Shown here: positions 4,025 to 10,554 of the stretch, one piece after another | How the letters are laid out: every line of letters starts with the position of its first letter | Position numbering within the stretch: the stretch's first letter is position 1 | NCBI GenBank assembly: GCA_012841995.1 | Contig: DUTQ01000154.1 | Span: forward strand, 1-10,849 | Reading direction: 5' to 3' | DNA from: Thermoanaerobacterales bacterium | Lineage (GTDB): Bacteria; Bacillota; Thermosediminibacteria; Thermosediminibacterales; Tepidanaerobacteraceae | DNA length: 10,849 bases | Position numbers and translations under genes: made by a program | The notes under the pieces: model-generated | Databases searched by the model: none | Seen by the model: only the letters and a program-made list of their open reading frames with translations | Told to the model about the DNA's origin: nothing

Positions 4025-4771
4025 ATGGTTTTAGATTCTTTGATAGACAGTGTAAGCAAGAAGGCAGCGTTAAGAATAGTTGAGGATGTTCGCATCGGCC
4101 TTGGGTATACTGCAGTTCTTTTAGATAATGGCAGCTGTGGCCTTGCTTATACCTTTCGAAACCAACTTGGCGGATGTTGCTGTGTGCTAAAAGATGCAGG
4201 ACATATGAAAGGCATGAAGTGTGATGATGTGATACGATGGGCAAAAGATGCAAATCTTGCAAAATCTGCCGTTGGATTAGCAACGATAAATGCCTTGCTC
4301 CAGGAAGATATAAAAGATTATAGATGTGATAACATCTTTGATAATTTACAGGTAAAGCCTGAAGATACTTTGGGAGTTGTGGGGGACTTTGGGCCTTTTT
4401 TGAGAGATATTAGAAAACAGGTAAAAGATATGTATGTTTTCGAAAAAAAAGTACAAGAGGTGCAGGGCTATTTGTACCCGGAAGAATCAATGGATACATA
4501 TCTACCCAATTGTGATATTGTAATTATTACTTCAACTTCAATTATAAACAAAACATTTGATAACATAATTAAAAAATGCCAAAATGCACGAGAAATAATA
4601 ATGCTTGGCCCTTCAACACCCCTGGCGCCGGCAGTATTTAGAAAATATAAAGTTACAGTACTTGCGGGAATTATTGTGTGTGAAGCTGAAAAAGTATTAG
4701 ATGTTGTAAGTCAAGGGGGAGGCACCCGTAGCTTGGGTAATTCAGTTAAACAAATGTATATTAACATTTAG
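4025..4771 (+). CDS. DUF4213/DUF364 domain protein (putative heavy-metal chelation family)
   Basis: A 248-residue soluble protein. The N-terminal part, about residues 1-95, fits DUF4213: the segment VRIGLGYTAVLL (22-33) is characteristic. The C-terminal part, about 110-245, fits the Rossmann-like DUF364 domain, with GVVGDFGPF (117-125), DIVIITSTSIINKTFDNII (164-182) and the GPSTPLAP loop (195-202). Members have been labelled putative heavy-metal chelation proteins, but I know of no proven reaction. Unusually, three consecutive cysteines lie at 51-53, with others at 38, 66, 101, 163, 185 and 219. The ATG at 4025 is set by AAGGAGGC at 4008-4015, nine bases upstream. The gene ends 70 bases before the sigma-54 regulator, with no terminator between, so the two may be cotranscribed. 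A metal- or sulfur-related role beside the cysteine genes is inference only. Confidence 0.82.
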   Translation: MVLDSLIDSVSKKAALRIVEDVRIGLGYTAVLLDNGSCGLAYTFRNQLGGCCCVLKDAGHMKGMKCDDVIRWAKDANLAKSAVGLATINALLQEDIKDYRCDNIFDNLQVKPEDTLGVVGDFGPFLRDIRKQVKDMYVFEKKVQEVQGYLYPEESMDTYLPNCDIVIITSTSIINKTFDNIIKKCQNAREIIMLGPSTPLAPAVFRKYKVTVLAGIIVCEAEKVLDVVSQGGGTRSLGNSVKQMYINI

Positions 4772-4841: not shown

Positions 4842-6605
4842 TTGTCTTATCTTAGACTTATAAAAGACAAGGCACAGGAGATTTCAAAAGATGTGTGCTC
4901 TGCTTTAGATGTGGATGTGACCATTACTGATGAAAATTTGGTAAGAATTTGTGGCACAGGCAGCTTTTCTTCTATGATAAACAAATATAGCCCTGAAAAC
5001 TCCATTTTTGCTCAAGTGCTAAACGAGAAAAAGCCTCTTACGGTAAAGGCACGAGAGAGGGATCCTATTTGTAGGACATGTTCTAATTATGATAAATGTG
5101 ATGAAATAAGTAATATGGCTTATCCCATAATAGTAGATGATAAGGTAATGGGTATTGTCAGCTTTGCTGCTTTTAATAAAAAGCAATTAGATCTCATGCA
5201 GAAAAAGTGGAAACAATACTTTAAACTACTTGAGAGAATAGCTACTATATTAGAAAAAGAGATCATCAACATAAAGATGGCTAATACCCTTATAATCCAG
5301 AAAGCGGAAATAAATGAACTGATAAATTCCATAGACAGAGGTATTTTAATTGCCGATATATCAAATAAAATAACCCATATAAATTCTAAAGCACTTGAAA
5401 TGCTCCGCCTTGACCTGGCCAAGGATAAAATAATTGGTAAAAGGGTAAATAAAATTATTAAAGGTATTAAGATAGGTAAAGCCGAAGAACGGCAAGTTAT
5501 CGATGTGTGGGAAATTAATGGCTATAAAGCGAGATTTTTATATAGGATAACTGAGGTTTCTTTAGAGGGACTAAAGTTGTCTACACTTATAGATTTCATG
5601 AGCTTAACTGAAATTATTAACACAGCAATGCATTATACTGCAAATGAAGGGATTACATTCTCACATATCATAGGAAACAGCTCATGTTTAAAAGAAACGA
5701 TAGAGCGGTCAAAGATTGTGGCAAAATCTGAATCAACAGTATTATTACAGGGGGAAAGCGGCACAGGAAAGGAACTTTTTGCAAGGGCCATACATAATGC
5801 AAGTTCTCGAAGAAATGGGCCGTTTATTGCTATAAATTGCTCAGCCATACCGGAAAACTTACTCGAATCCGAACTATTTGGATATGAACGCGGTGCCTTT
5901 ACAGGAGCTAGTGAAGGCGGTAAAATCGGAAAAATGGAACTGGCTAATAATGGCACATTATTTTTAGATGAGATAGGTGATTTGCCATTACATTTGCAGC
6001 CTAAGCTACTTCGAGCCCTACAGGGCCAGGAAATTACTCGCATTGGAGGCAAGACCGGCATAAAGATAAATATAAGGATTATATCGGCTACACATAAAGA
6101 CCTTTACAAACTGGTTAAATCAAGGCAATTTCGAGAAGACCTATACTACAGATTAAATGTCATTCCTCTTCTCATACCTCCGCTTAGAGAACGCGAAAAT
6201 GATGTGATAATTTTATCTGAATATATTTTGGAAAAGCTAAGTCATAAGATGGATATAAAGCAGAAAAAATTATCACGAGAAGTGGAAGACAAATTTTTAT
6301 CTTACTCTTGGCCCGGTAATGTTAGAGAGCTCGAGAATGTGTTAGAATATGCCGCAAACTTTTCAAAAACGCAAATGATTAAGCTTAATGATTTGCCTGA
6401 ATATATTTTAAGAGATGATAAAAAGCATCGAGGCGGCTTATTAGAAAACGGATTAACATTAGATGAGATGGTAAGGCAATATGAAAAGAATATATTGCAT
6501 AAATATATTGATTTTTATGGGGATACAGTTAAAAGTAAAAAAAAGATTGCCAAGAAATTGGGTATTGGCCTGACAACACTGTATAGAAAATTAGGAGAAT
6601 CATGA
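4842..6605 (+). CDS. Sigma-54-dependent enhancer-binding regulator (Cys-rich sensor, PAS, AAA+, Fis)
   Basis: A 587-residue transcription activator of the NtrC type. Residues 1-140 form a GAF/PAS-like sensor holding C77-x2-C80-x5-C86, a possible metal or Fe-S site. A PAS-like domain follows at about 155-255. The AAA+ domain covers about 275-505, with Walker A GESGTGKE (304-311), the sigma-54-contacting loop GAFTGA (351-356) and Walker [11 protein letters not shown] (371-380). A Fis-type helix-turn-helix lies at about 562-585. There is no receiver domain, so it should respond to a ligand or redox state rather than a kinase. The start is TTG at 4842: an in-frame stop lies at 4833-4835, no earlier start exists, and the next ATG (residue 45) would cut the sensor. 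A G-rich site, AGGTGGG at 4826-4832, precedes it. The obvious target is the sigma-54 promoter at 6753-6769. Confidence 0.93.
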
Positions 6606-6606
6606 A

Positions 6607-6649
6607 CTTTTCCCATAAATGAAAAATTATCTTTCATTTATGGGAAAAG
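6607..6649. repeat. 18-bp perfect inverted repeat (enhancer site or terminator)
   Basis: The arms CTTTTCCCATAAATGAAA (6607-6624) and its exact reverse complement (6632-6649) flank a 7-base loop, starting one base after the regulator's stop codon. As RNA this is a stable hairpin, but the following bases CCATGTTTTGAACC contain only four T, so it would be a weak intrinsic terminator. Its centre is about 127 bases upstream of the -24 element, the usual distance for an upstream activating site bound by an enhancer-binding protein. It could serve either role or both. The rest of the 6606-6752 gap shows nothing I can name. Confidence 0.6.
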
Positions 6650-6752
6650 CCATGTTTTGAACCATTGCCATTTACCTTAAAGCAAAACAATAGAATATCT
6701 TGAATCCCAGCCGGATCCGAGTCGCCTCACTATACAATATCTTTTACCCGAG

Positions 6753-6769
6753 TTGGTATGAATTTTGCA
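6753..6769 (+). promoter_or_regulatory. Sigma-54 (-24/-12) promoter of the cysteine desulfidase operon
   Basis: The sequence TTGGTATGAATTTTGCA has the invariant GG (6755-6756) and GC (6767-6768) separated by exactly ten bases. It matches the consensus YTGGCACGRNNNTTGCW at all but two specified positions. The predicted transcription start is near 6780, giving a leader of about 43 bases that contains the ribosome-binding site GGAGAGGAG (6807-6815). It lies directly between a sigma-54 activator gene and the genes it would control. Confidence 0.85.
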
Positions 6770-6822
6770 TTTATTTAACATTGGAGACTATTACTAATTT
6801 TACTTTGGAGAGGAGTAATTCC

Positions 6823-8103
6823 ATGATAAGGGTAGAAGATATTGTAAATATATTAAGGGAACAAGTCAGACCTGCTCTGGGTTGTACGGAACCCGTTGCT
6901 GTAGCCGTAGCGGTTTCTCGGGCCTATGCGGAAATAGGGGGACAAATCAACAGTATATACATTGAAGTAACACCAAATATCTATAAAAATGGCATGAGGG
7001 TTATGATACCCGGAACTTGTGAGAAAGGGTTGCATATGGCAGCAGCATTAGGAGCTGTTTGTGGAGACTGGAGATTGGGCCTTGAAGTATTCAGAGGAGT
7101 GACAGATGAGTTTTTAAAAGAGGCAAAGCGCATTTTAACTTTAAACATGATTAGAATAAAAAGCAACTTTGATGTAGATAGTCCTTTTTATATTTGCGCA
7201 GAAGTAAAAACCGACAATGGGTATTGTATTTGCATAATAGAAGATTGCCATACGAATATAAGCTATATAGAAAAAAACAATGAACAGGTTTTCAAAAAAA
7301 CCCAGATTTCACCGAGAAAAAACCTTGATGTAAACTTGATACGAGATGCAACTGTAAAAGGTTTAAGGCAGATAATAGAGCAAATACCAATTGATGAACT
7401 TGAGTTTCTTTTGGAAGGTGCCAATTTAAATTTGGAGGTTGCTGAATGGGGGCTGGAAGTGCAAAAAGAGGAAAATGTAGGCTATAAACTTCAGCAGATG
7501 ATACATAATGGCATTCTAGCTGATGATGTAGTGAATAGAGCCAGAGTGGTTACAGCATCCGCAGCATATGCCCGCATGTCTGGGGTGAAAATACCTGTGA
7601 TGAGTAGTGCAGGTAGCGGAAATCATGGAATTACGGCAACCTTGCCGGTGCTAGTGGTTGCAGAGCATTTAAGATGTAGTAATGAAGTCTTGATTAGGAC
7701 TCTTGCATTAAGCCATATTGTTACTATATTAATAAAAACATATACCGGAAGGCTTTCTCCCATGTGTGGCTGTGGTGTTGCTGCAGGTGTAGGAGCAAGT
7801 GCCGGTATATCATGGCTATTAGGAGGTGATGATGAAAAGATCGCCGGTGCAATAAAAAACATGATAGGTAATTTGACCGGTATTGTTTGCGATGGCGCAA
7901 AAAAAGGCTGTGCCTGGAAATTATCCACAGCTGCAGCTGAATCTGTATTAGCTGCCCAATTGGCCATAAGCGGAACTGTTATCCCGGATTTTGATGGAAT
8001 AATCGGAAAGAGTGCTGAAATGACTATTAAAAATCTTGGAAAATTGTGTAATAATGGAATGAAGGGTGTAGATGAGCAAATCATTGAAATTATGTCTTGC
8101 TAA
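6823..8103 (+). CDS. cyuA: L-cysteine desulfidase, CyuA/UPF0597 (serine dehydratase alpha-like) family
   Basis: A 426-residue cytoplasmic enzyme expected to convert L-cysteine to pyruvate, ammonia and hydrogen sulfide with a [4Fe-4S] cluster instead of pyridoxal phosphate. Family marks: VRPALGCTEPVAVAVA near the N-terminus (Cys21 in the CTEP motif), MSSAGSGNHGITATLPV starting at residue 260, MCGCG with Cys315 and Cys317, and VCDGAKKGC with Cys356 and Cys363. In the characterised archaeal enzyme the cluster is held by one N-terminal and two C-terminal cysteines, which these positions fit. The start is ATG 6823, eight bases after GGAGAGGAG. The frame is open 41 codons further up, but that part covers the sigma-54 promoter. 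Length matches E. coli CyuA (about 436). It is followed 17 bases later by the ATC hydrolase-like gene in the same operon. A different substrate, such as serine or another thiol amino acid, is possible. Confidence 0.88.
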   Translation: MIRVEDIVNILREQVRPALGCTEPVAVAVAVSRAYAEIGGQINSIYIEVTPNIYKNGMRVMIPGTCEKGLHMAAALGAVCGDWRLGLEVFRGVTDEFLKEAKRILTLNMIRIKSNFDVDSPFYICAEVKTDNGYCICIIEDCHTNISYIEKNNEQVFKKTQISPRKNLDVNLIRDATVKGLRQIIEQIPIDELEFLLEGANLNLEVAEWGLEVQKEENVGYKLQQMIHNGILADDVVNRARVVTASAAYARMSGVKIPVMSSAGSGNHGITATLPVLVVAEHLRCSNEVLIRTLALSHIVTILIKTYTGRLSPMCGCGVAAGVGASAGISWLLGGDDEKIAGAIKNMIGNLTGIVCDGAKKGCAWKLSTAAAESVLAAQLAISGTVIPDFDGIIGKSAEMTIKNLGKLCNNGMKGVDEQIIEIMSC

Positions 8104-8120
8104 AAATAAGGAGGATTAAC

Positions 8121-8837
8121 ATGTGTAAAGGGAAAATTGAGTTTACTGCAAATCAACATGCACTACTTTTTTCTTGGATAGCAAAGGAAGTTATAGATAG
8201 ATTTGGGGAAAAAGGCAAAAATGCAGTAGGCAGAGGTGTGGTAGAATACGGCAGACAGCGTGGAAAACGAATGGCGTTAAGGGTAAAGAAAGATGGCAAG
8301 CATATTGATATCTCAAATTATATAGCTTATGGAGAATGGCAGGCAAGACCCGGTGATATGGATACAAGGCTTTTTATACACGGCGATGATTTAAATATGC
8401 AGATACATAAATGCCCATGGTTTGAAGAATGGAAAAAGCATGACCTTCTTGAATATGGGCGTATTTATTGTCAATATATAGACGAGGCTATAGTTGAGGG
8501 ATATAACTCACAAATGAAGCTCGACGTACTTCAAAATCGATCGGCAGGAGCCGATTACTGTGACTTTTGGTTCAGAAAGGCAGGTATGACAGAAGAGGAT
8601 TTTGAGAAAATAAATAAGACAAAAAGTAAGCTGGGTGGCAAGGCAATCATGCCTTGGGATTATCATATAGCACATCTTTACAAGGCTTTAGAAGATGTAA
8701 TCATTCAAGAACTAGGTGAAAGAGCAAAAGATGCAATAAAGGCAGCCCTTGATATGTTTGCAAAAAACTATGGGCAAGAGTCTGCTGACATAATTTTGAG
8801 TTTAAAAGATACAGATTTTAATATACTCCCTAAATAA
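8121..8837 (+). CDS. L-2-amino-thiazoline-4-carboxylate (ATC) hydrolase family protein
   Basis: A 238-residue soluble protein that I assign to the ATC hydrolase family from its conserved pattern: FGEKGKNAVGRGVVEYGRQR (28-47, ending in the YGRxRG signature), CPWFEEW (98-104), LLEYGRIYCQYIDEAI (109-124) and GADYCDFWF (143-151). Cys98, Cys117 and Cys147 are candidate functional residues. In Pseudomonas, ATC hydrolase opens the thiazoline ring of ATC, giving a carbamoyl-cysteine that a second hydrolase turns into L-cysteine. No such second enzyme is visible here. The family is broad in anaerobes, so the exact substrate is uncertain. The start is ATG 8121 after AAGGAGGAT (8108-8116). The frame stays open to 8097, but that extension lacks a ribosome-binding site and overlaps the upstream gene. 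The close link to cyuA suggests that its product feeds cysteine degradation. Confidence 0.78.
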   Translation: MCKGKIEFTANQHALLFSWIAKEVIDRFGEKGKNAVGRGVVEYGRQRGKRMALRVKKDGKHIDISNYIAYGEWQARPGDMDTRLFIHGDDLNMQIHKCPWFEEWKKHDLLEYGRIYCQYIDEAIVEGYNSQMKLDVLQNRSAGADYCDFWFRKAGMTEEDFEKINKTKSKLGGKAIMPWDYHIAHLYKALEDVIIQELGERAKDAIKAALDMFAKNYGQESADIILSLKDTDFNILPK

Positions 8838-8920: not shown

Positions 8921-8937
8921 AAGGAGGTGGTCAAATT
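8921..8937 (+). promoter_or_regulatory. Strong ribosome-binding site followed by an ATT start codon
   Basis: AAGGAGGTGG (8921-8930) is a near-complete anti-16S match. Seven bases after AAGGAGG comes ATT AAA AAA in the reading frame of the chemoreceptor. No ATG, GTG or TTG is in frame between the upstream stop (8914-8916) and TTG 8983. TTG 8983 has no ribosome-binding site and would remove most of the first membrane helix. ATT is therefore the best start, or an original ATG is mutated or misread here. Confidence 0.65.
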
Positions 8938-10554
8938 AAAAAATATAATCTCTATTTAAAGGTTTTCATTATTGCTGCCTTATTGTTTCCTGTAATACTT
9001 TATTTAAGTTCGGCTAAACTGGCATGGTCAAATCGTTTGTTGGGACTTTTACTTTTCACAGAACTTGTTATAGCAATTATTATGCTATATTCACTGGCAA
9101 AAGCAGCTACTAATTTCGAAAAATATCTAATATCGAGTATAAATATCCATGACAGTTCCGGCACATCAACAGCATTGAAGACGCGCATTTTTAAAGACAT
9201 AGCCGGCGACTTTGACGATTTTATTGAGAAAGTCAAGGGGATTCAAAGAGAACTCAAGATAGTTGCAGAACAGGCTCTATTCCTCTCAAACCAGCTTTCT
9301 GCAAGTGTAAAAGATATTGATTTTTCTCATGAGCAGGTAGTTGACTCCATTCAGAGTGTGGCATCAGGAGCTCAACAGCAGGCAGCGCTCTCGCATGAAT
9401 CTAAGAAACAATTAAATGGGTTACTGGATCTTTCGTGGGATTCTATCTCAAGGGCAAAAAGTGCCGGGGACGGTTTTGCCAATCTCGTCAAAATAATAGA
9501 AACTTCTTCTTCAATGATTAAGACATTGATGGATAGTATAAGTAATAGTAGTCAAATAAGTGAGCAATTAGTTCAAGAAATGTCTGAACTCAAAGAAAAA
9601 AGTTTGAAAATAAACAAAATAACTGTTGCAGTAGAAAAGGTAGCAGATCAAACAAACCTATTGGCTTTAAATGCAGCTATTGAAGCTGCAAGGGCAGGCG
9701 AGTATGGGCTGGGATTTGCAGTAGTCGCAAAGGAAGTAGGAAAGCTAGCAGAGGAGTCAAAGGTTTTGGCAAATGATATTAGCGGCATATTAGGAGAAAT
9801 GATGAAAGAAATAAATAAAAATGTTAAAAAAACCGAAGAAAATTCGATTCAATCTAAAAAAGATGTAAGGCAGGCACAGGAATCCAAAAGTTCATTAGAT
9901 CAGGTTATGGCAAGTGCTCATGAATTGGAAAAGCATATATATGGGATTCAGGAAAACACAAATAAGCAGACAAAAGAGGTCAAATACATAGCAAAATCTT
10001 TTGATAATATCGTTTATATAACCGAAGAGGCTTCTGCAGCATCGGAAGAGGTTGCCGCAGCTAGCGAAGAGCAAAAGGCCTCATTGGAAGAGCTCTTGAA
10101 GATGACTGTATACTTAAATGATACACAAGACAGATTGAGCGCAATTATAAAACAGTTTGGCAGTGATAGCAGCATTATAAGTGAAAAACGGGAAGCGATA
10201 AAGAACCTGCTGAATATTTTGATGGAATATGCCTCATCTGCAGAGGTTTTGACAATGGATAAACAAAAACACAAATTGGTTTTTTCAAGGCTTCAAGAAC
10301 AACATCCTGAATTTCAAATCATTTACTCAGCTAAAGGCGGTAAACTCCATTATATTACCAGAACTGTAGATATAGAAGATATAGCTTTTAGGCCGTGGTA
10401 TGGTAAGGCTATTGATGGTAAGACATACATTTCAGAGCCTTATGTTCCTGTGGGCACAGAAGATACATGTATAACTATTTCTGTCCCTATCAAGAATGAA
10501 GAAAATGAAATACTAGGTGTTTTGGCATCTGACATAAAAATAAATGACCTGTGA
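8935..10554 (+). CDS. Methyl-accepting chemotaxis protein with a C-terminal Cache-like domain
   Basis: A 539-residue chemoreceptor if read from the ATT codon. It begins (M)KKYNLYLK and has two close membrane helices, about residues 8-25 and 33-53, with almost no outside loop between, so there is no periplasmic-type ligand domain. A long coiled coil follows. The signalling tip is at about 230-276, with the classic [20 protein letters not shown] (237-256) and [16 protein letters not shown]; the second methylation helix contains [19 protein letters not shown]. After about residue 415 comes a sensor-like domain of the Cache/PDC type, with RPWYGKA (486-492), [10 protein letters not shown] and a closing VLASDI strand. 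Cache domains normally sit outside the cell before the signalling part; here it would be cytoplasmic. The RxWY core of amino-acid-binding Cache domains is present, but the Tyr five residues before the Arg is replaced. The protein should couple to CheW/CheA. The ligand is unknown. Confidence 0.9.

Follow-up and report, generated by a model that had tools for sequence, protein, structure and literature searches.

A sigma-54-controlled operon pairs a CyuA-type cysteine desulfidase with a PF14196 hydrolase-family protein in a Thermoanaerobacterales bacterium

Why would a gene of PF14196, a family whose name refers to ring opening (ATC_hydrolase; ATC, 2-aminothiazoline-4-carboxylate), directly follow the gene of a cysteine-degrading enzyme? 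The question is raised by a stretch of 10,849 nucleotides (nt) from a Thermoanaerobacterales bacterium, contig DUTQ01000154.1 of assembly GCA_012841995.1 (hereafter the window; contig C117 of a 1.71-Mb draft genome that is 84% complete). On its plus strand lie, in this order, a gene for a sigma-54 activator, a -24/-12 promoter element, a gene for the cysteine desulfidase CyuA, a PF14196 gene and a gene for a chemotaxis receptor. The layout of the operon, its sigma-54 promoter and activator, and the identity of CyuA are directly observed or strongly supported; the adjacency of CyuA and PF14196 is real, is under sigma-54 control in the window, and recurs in other genomes beyond chance. What the second protein does for the first is a matter of graded likelihood, and it is to this that most of the following argument is devoted.

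The first gene of the pair (6823-8103, plus strand; ATG at 6823, stop codon at 8101-8103, with a ribosome binding site read from the sequence at 6807-6815) encodes a CyuA/CdsB-type [4Fe-4S] L-cysteine desulfidase (UPF0597) as a single chain of 426 residues, which matches SDH_alpha with 208 bits and finds its best solved relative in the L-cysteine desulfidase of M. maripaludis (9fsl; full-length alignment, E 8.9e-36). Cys21 and Glu23, within the motif LGCTE, align with the catalytic Cys23 and Glu25 of that enzyme; Cys315, Cys356 and Cys363 with Cys287, Cys329 and Cys336, the three conserved cluster ligands; Cys317 with Cys289, the non-conserved fourth ligand; and Arg251, Asn267 and Lys366 with Arg223, Asn239 and Lys339, which lie around the active site. 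These residue roles are those given for M. maripaludis CyuA in PMC12647591 – a source that, like all papers cited here, we draw on in excerpt – where the Cys/Glu pair is also described as distinguishing desulfidases from serine dehydratases. By such strong homology, the window CyuA would convert L-cysteine to pyruvate, ammonia and sulfide.

The second gene (8121-8837, plus strand; ATG at 8121, stop codon ending at 8837) follows after a gap of 17 nt (8104-8120), which contains its ribosome binding site AAGGAGGA, read from the sequence at 8108-8115. Its product of 238 residues scores 96.3 bits against PF14196 (curated cut-off 28.1), and is the one match to this family found in the draft genome. 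The structure model (predicted local distance difference test, pLDDT, 96.5) resembles V4R/TRAPP/H-NOX folds (Bet3, DmpR, MopR, PoxR) over approximately residues 3-155, at 5-16% sequence identity, and this V4R-like part is followed by C-terminal helices with an MPWDYH motif. Among 100 PF14196 sequences 15 columns are invariant, including His, Arg, Glu, Cys and Asp; Cys98, Cys117, Cys147 and His182 of the window protein are invariant across such a set of 100. A search of solved structures by sequence returned PPE-family matches only, at E 0.07 or worse, and a genome-contig scan with the single protein gave no matches; the scan with a six-row PF14196 alignment gave one locus, L009, which is the most informative of those read. 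The nearest homologues, P0002-P0004, are 54-65% identical to the window protein. P0005 and P0007 are fusions of PF14196 with a GNAT acetyltransferase domain, and a GNAT gene adjoins PF14196 in genome G617 (L117, 6718-7922).

What controls the pair? The -24/-12 element TGGTATGAATTTTGCA (6754-6769, plus strand) matches TGGYRYRNNNNTTGCW with 0 mismatches and is the only exact match in the window, lying 53 nt 5' of the CyuA start codon and 148 nt 3' of the activator gene. With one mismatch allowed, 1.19 matches are expected in the window and 2 are present, a number that is reached in 68 of 200 shuffles; since such matches occur at about chance level, the site is weak taken alone. It is backed, however, by its placement, by an rpoN (sigma-54) gene in the same genome (G000:C378; 379 bits with the rpoN model, cut-off 277), and by the same layout at other CyuA loci. 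The activator gene itself (4842-6605, plus strand) encodes a sigma-54 enhancer-binding protein of 587 residues with a PAS-like sensor, an AAA+ domain with GAFTGA and a C-terminal HTH, which score 22.7 bits for PAS_8 (cut-off 21.8), 237 bits for Sigma54_activat and 23 bits for HTH_50 (below the cut-off of 27); its best NCBIfam match is PrdR (NF041552; 415 bits, below the cut-off of 795). As in the CdsR-type module, this AAA+ activator with GAFTGA sits directly 5' of the desulfidase gene, and by position and architecture it appears to be CdsR-like. A CxxCx5C motif occurs in the sensor part of both this activator (residues 77-86) and that of locus L166 (9884-11698; residues 90-99), and could possibly be a metal, redox or thiol sensing site.

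The arrangement is not peculiar to the window. We found 20 other CyuA open reading frames (ORFs); exclusion of L069, which is truncated by a contig end, left 19 loci that are not a random set, as their genomes were all picked for having PF14196. Activator homologues were looked for in the available flanks, mostly of approximately 1.5 kb, and occur at 8 of the 19; near the CyuA start, 7 of these 8 loci have a -24/-12 match (one mismatch or none) versus none of the other 11, L067 (G169) being counted among the 11 even though an activator sits further upstream in its operon. The seven do not amount to seven independent cases, because L055/L056 and L057/L058 are similar pairs. L061 has its activator on the other strand, and at L064 an activator is present and no -24/-12 site was found near the CyuA start. 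In L066 and L068 the sites are located at +9 and -11 relative to the earliest possible start codon, which suggests that the true CyuA starts there are probably further in.

Half of this design is already known. In C. difficile, CdsR (591 residues; PAS, AAA+, Fis-type, GAFTGA) is encoded 5' of cdsB, with a -24/-12 promoter before cdsB, whose expression requires SigL, CdsR and cysteine (PMC5767170); a Clostridiales regulon survey also includes CdsR-cdsB (PMC6615313). The window shares with CdsR-SigL-CdsB the upstream gene for an activator of approximately 590 residues with PAS, AAA+, HTH and GAFTGA, and the -24/-12 promoter in between. It differs in having PF14196 as the second gene of the operon, none being named with cdsB in the excerpted text of PMC5767170. 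The cyuPA operon of E. coli likewise has a CyuA desulfidase for anaerobic cysteine use and a cysteine-responsive regulator; unlike the window, it relies on CyuR and Crp rather than sigma-54, and the partner of CyuA is the importer CyuP rather than a hydrolase (PMC9040844). The sigma-54/activator/desulfidase half thus corresponds to CdsR-CdsB, and the PF14196 partner is new to the searchable literature.

Does the pair recur? Across the phylum, PF14196 is present in 61 of 398 genomes (matches kept at E 0.001; 56 of the 61 above the family cut-off), and a search for CyuA in all 61 found both families in 30 (CyuA at E 1e-10 or better). For the proximity count, genomes with weaker CyuA matches only (G042, G133, G323) were dropped, and some of the matches retained are partial (G004, G006, G395). 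Besides the window, the two genes lie on the same strand within 6 kb in G136 (50 nt between matches), G169 (167 nt), G282 (2.9 kb) and G267 (5.1 kb), that is, in 4 of 29 genomes against 0.26 expected (Poisson P 1.6e-4), with a limit set after the distances were known and expected counts that, as for the other limits, presume random placement along the genome. The excess is present at other limits too, again with the window aside: 2 of 29 against 0.07 within 1 kb (P 0.0023), 3 of 29 against 0.17 within 3.5 kb (P 6.7e-4), and 6 of 29 against 0.80 within 20 kb (P 1.8e-4), the last including the near kin G013 and G014, in which PF14196 and CyuA are 15.3 kb apart and which we do not count as pairs.

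Two further pairs came from elsewhere: G408, found through its PF14196 gene, and G617, from the same order. In that order PF14196 occurs in 39 of 297 genomes, 27 of which (G408 included) also have an SDH_alpha match, a family that covers serine dehydratases too; the survey's own yield was one pair, G617, in the 26 other genomes with both. In a survey of the class to which the window belongs, 7 of 25 genomes have PF14196; CyuA was sought in all seven, and only the window has the two genes within 6 kb of each other. In the class of G408, PF14196 is present in 19 of 391 genomes, and none of the seven loci read from that survey has CyuA, although no dedicated CyuA search of those genomes was made. 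In a tree of 22 CyuAs, the seven linked ones stand in several places: 5 changes are needed, at least 4 of them forced by well-supported branches, so the pairing is not one inherited cassette, and the linked CyuAs are no more clustered than chance would give (a value as low in 96 of 500 shuffles). They have the desulfidase-typical Cys/Glu pair, a motif that helped to pick the ORFs for L009, L114 and L117, and did not for L164-L166.

Up to this point, the original prediction fares well: it had set two genes 17 bases apart behind one -24/-12 promoter, and the coordinates are correct; its call of CyuA agrees with the SDH_alpha and 9fsl matches and with the catalytic and cluster residues present; sigma-54 control is borne out by the exact element, the activator gene upstream, rpoN in the genome and the same layout elsewhere; and the recurrent adjacency that it had proposed as a check is found in the four genomes within 6 kb, and in G408 and G617.

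The company kept by the linked genes is where a function might be sought; gene names in these operons were given by eye from translations unless a family match is stated. L009 (G408, an uncultured Clostridia bacterium) has, on one strand, a Liv transporter, PF14196, an M20 amidohydrolase, CyuA, MarR and a second PF14196. L114 (G282) comprises a flavoprotein, a 2Fe-2S protein, PF14196, a symporter, M20, CyuA and IclR, and L117 (G617) comprises PF14196, GNAT, GntR and CyuA. L164 (G136) has Liv, PF14196, CyuA, DhaK and DhaL, and L165 (G267) has Liv, PF14196, DhaK/L twice, a regulator and CyuA. L166 (G169) repeats the type of control, with a sigma-54 activator 37% identical to that of the window and a -24/-12 site (1 mismatch), then Liv, CyuA, PF14196 and an aldehyde ferredoxin oxidoreductase. 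Among 40 PF14196 loci, Liv permease occurs within 6 kb on the same strand at 10, M20 at 8, CyuA at 6 and DhaK at 4, a tally that comes from 44 chosen loci (40 showing PF14196 by the panel, several cut by contig ends and some genomes present twice) and from a small reference panel, and thus samples the loci non-randomly and annotates them incompletely. At L159, L161, L164 and L165, a Liv transporter recurs together with a short PF14196 gene and DhaK/DhaL-like genes.

The M20 genes deserve closer consideration. In L009 and L114 they stand between PF14196 and CyuA, and the M20 proteins of L009, L114 and L158 (where M20 is beside PF14196, without CyuA) score above the cut-off of the TIGR01891 amidohydrolase subfamily. 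The M20 protein of L162, where a PF14196 gene, a ureohydrolase and a Liv operon are its neighbours, matches hydantoinase/carbamoylase with 508 bits (cut-off 204); we considered ergothioneine breakdown for this locus and dropped it, as the protein scores 415 against ErtE, below the cut-off of 520, and the literature was no help. In the draft genome of the window, the only M20 match lies away from the pair (G000:C138) and belongs to the carbamoylase subfamily (352 bits over 204). On that contig (L168), its neighbours are, by eye, XdhC- and MobA-like genes, which may belong to a cluster for purine degradation.

Taken together, we favour a two-gene anaerobic cysteine-catabolic operon in which the PF14196 hydrolase feeds CyuA, a reading to which, as a whole, we give slightly less than an even chance. 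Sigma-54 RNA polymerase would bind at 6754-6769 and be switched on by the CdsR-like activator encoded just upstream, whose signal, by analogy with C. difficile, would most likely be cysteine or a cysteine-like compound, and both genes would be co-transcribed. The PF14196 protein, a hydrolase with a putative V4R-like fold, would most likely open a thiazoline or thiazolidine, in which cysteine is cyclised or held as an adduct. The opened product may then reach CyuA as such, or after the action of a carbamoylase or amidohydrolase whose gene lies elsewhere. Transporters and M20 amidohydrolases accompany both families in relatives, where they would make up fuller catabolic operons. Could this be a general strategy? 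We posit, with considerable doubt, that V4R-fold ring-opening PF14196 hydrolases have more than once served anaerobes as the core of operons, together with an importer, an amidohydrolase or aldehyde/triose enzymes, and CyuA, for the fermentation of cyclic or adducted cysteine such as cyanide-derived thiazolines and sugar or aldehyde thiazolidines, with the window as the shortest, sigma-54-controlled form.

ATC arising from cyanide originates from cystine. As a cyanide metabolite (PMC9291117; PMC11269370), ATC has a natural source. In Pseudomonas, the ATC pathway proceeds from ATC hydrolase through carbamoyl-cysteine amidohydrolase to cysteine desulfhydrase, with pyruvate, ammonia and sulfide as end products (PMC10821248), and the logic proposed here – ring opening, carbamoyl removal, cysteine breakdown – would be alike. 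Unlike that pathway, ours would run in other organisms with a different last enzyme, the window has no amidohydrolase gene, and its substrate is proposed by inference. A route from ATC to cysteine is thus plausible and unproven, and would rest on the family name and on operon company. Here the original prediction calls for some revision. Its suggestion that a carbamoyl-cysteine amidohydrolase may lie elsewhere, the other option it gave being a different substrate for the ATC-family protein, finds support in the M20 genes between the two families in L009 and L114 and in the carbamoylase-type M20 elsewhere in the window genome, none being found in the window itself. That it knew of no pathway reported for this pairing agrees with our search, in which, among the matches listed and with subscription literature largely outside its reach, no paper links CyuA to PF14196 or ATC hydrolase; the sigma-54/activator/desulfidase half, on the other hand, is published for C. 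difficile. In PMC10821248 and PMC9841684, ‘cysteine desulfidase’ and ‘thiazoline’ both occur, unconnected in the excerpted text, and a gene group related to ATC hydrolase, which PMC9674144 includes among co-expression data for F. prausnitzii, does not bear on the pairing as far as the excerpt goes. A literature search on thiazolidine adducts returned nothing useful. Finally, to let the family name point to ATC as the substrate was an overstatement: PF14196 is broad, its modelled fold resembles V4R, and CyuA is absent from the same strand within 6 kb at 34 of the 40 loci read, and the name therefore does not fix the substrate.

That last count is also among the observations that weigh against a hydrolase feeding CyuA, and there are several more. 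Of 15 PF14196 loci in the order of G408, 13 have no panel gene nearby. For each of the 8 CyuA loci with a linked activator, PF14196 is on another contig or more than 1 Mb away. Within the window, family scans of its proteins found no transporter genes besides an ABC pair at 507-2484, which matches no amino-acid importer by family, and scanning the nine window proteins found no amidohydrolase or carbamoyl-cysteine amidohydrolase gene beside PF14196. The M20 protein of G000:C138 is also just over the cut-off of the allantoate amidohydrolase subfamily (401.6 against 399), and may therefore serve purine breakdown. The assignment to ATC_hydrolase holds at family level, and the modelled V4R-like fold is known elsewhere from sensors and structural proteins.

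Might the PF14196 protein be a clean-up enzyme, reversing ring adducts of cysteine with pyruvate or aldehydes during CyuA action, rather than feeding in an external substrate? Cysteine and carbonyls spontaneously form thiazolidines, the PF14196 gene follows CyuA in one operon, and the linked clusters include aldehyde or triose enzymes, namely the aldehyde ferredoxin oxidoreductase after PF14196 in L166 and Dak1 kinase genes in L164 and L165. However, the importers (Liv, symporter) and M20 amidohydrolases in several linked operons indicate an imported substrate, and we regard clean-up as unlikely. Equally improbable, in our estimation, is that PF14196 acts on amides, ureides or other rings unrelated to cysteine, with the adjacent CyuA a general amino-acid deaminase or there for other reasons. 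This would suit the many loci in the order of G408 with no panel gene nearby, as well as those PF14196 genes that, in the absence of CyuA, stand beside Liv, ureohydrolase, DhaK/L-like or PF01979 genes; it fits poorly with CyuA proximity above chance in several CyuA branches, with the desulfidase-typical Cys/Glu pair of the linked CyuAs, and with sulfur-amino-acid genes nearby, such as a cysteine synthase (L043) and a methionine gamma-lyase-like gene below cut-offs (L115).

The fold itself invites another question: is the protein an enzyme at all? As its model matches TRAPP Bet3, DmpR, MopR and PoxR, and as a conserved cluster of three Cys in the PF14196 family is common to V4R proteins (PMC5847659), it could serve as a sensor or accessory protein that binds a ligand or metal, like the V4R domains of MopR, PoxR and DmpR. 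Its model differs from MopR, PoxR, DmpR and Bet3 in the extra C-terminal helices with MPWDYH. Against a sensor, the family scan found no output domain attached to the window protein; the 15 invariant columns, with their His, Arg, Glu, Cys and Asp, also argue for an enzyme, as does a purified member of the family that cleaves the C-S bond of a thiazoline ring, cited in PMC5847659. A sensor or accessory protein seems to us very unlikely.

If PF14196 hydrolases do feed CyuA, then cysteine adducts derived from cyanide or aldehydes would be a possible food, not a dead end. The CyuA operons in the cited papers, as excerpted, handle free cysteine, and the pairing in several distantly related bacteria hints at an undescribed feeding on disguised forms of cysteine. 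The recurrent link to a family named for ring opening also gives a testable substrate class for PF14196, which is annotated widely on thin evidence. Sulfide from cysteine matters wherever anaerobes live.

Several smaller features accompany the pair. After the activator gene, an 18-bp hairpin (21-nt inverted repeat; 6607-6649, plus strand), listed as terminator-like, falls within a region whose fold (6600-6670) reaches -25.7 kcal/mol with z -6.6; this is probably the terminator of the activator gene, and possibly a candidate activator site. Two imperfect 24-nt direct repeats follow at 6687-6752 (plus strand; start-to-start 42 nt, 75% identity), and are candidate activator sites that may be due to chance. 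The chemotaxis receptor directly downstream of the pair (8935-10554) has MCPsignal at residues 204-360 and dCache at 378-539, an unusual order in that the Cache sensor is C-terminal to the signalling domain. Just 5' of the activator gene lies a DUF4213/DUF364 gene (4025-4771; putative heavy-metal chelation), and 127-2484 contains the ABC transporter pair with a GntR-family regulator (PmtR-like, below cut-off).

Elsewhere, other loci show arrangements of their own. In G013, L115 (1751-18764) is a co-oriented island running from PF14196 to CyuA, with the same end-gene spacing in G014; by eye it includes a SorC regulator, an aldolase, dehydrogenases, the methionine gamma-lyase-like gene (which scores below curated cut-offs), a sugar kinase, a Dpp transporter and an M20 peptidase, and could be a pathway for sugar-cysteine conjugates. 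At L043 (7701-9322), the cysteine synthase gene follows, on the same strand, a PF14196 gene that ends a Liv operon. G587 has eight PF14196 matches, six of them within approximately 21 kb on contig 1 (L118, L134), and a lone SDH_alpha match more than 400 kb off. At L046, L047 and L133, an M20 carboxypeptidase-like gene adjoins PF14196, and a D-cysteine-desulfhydrase-like gene (by eye) lies a few kb away.

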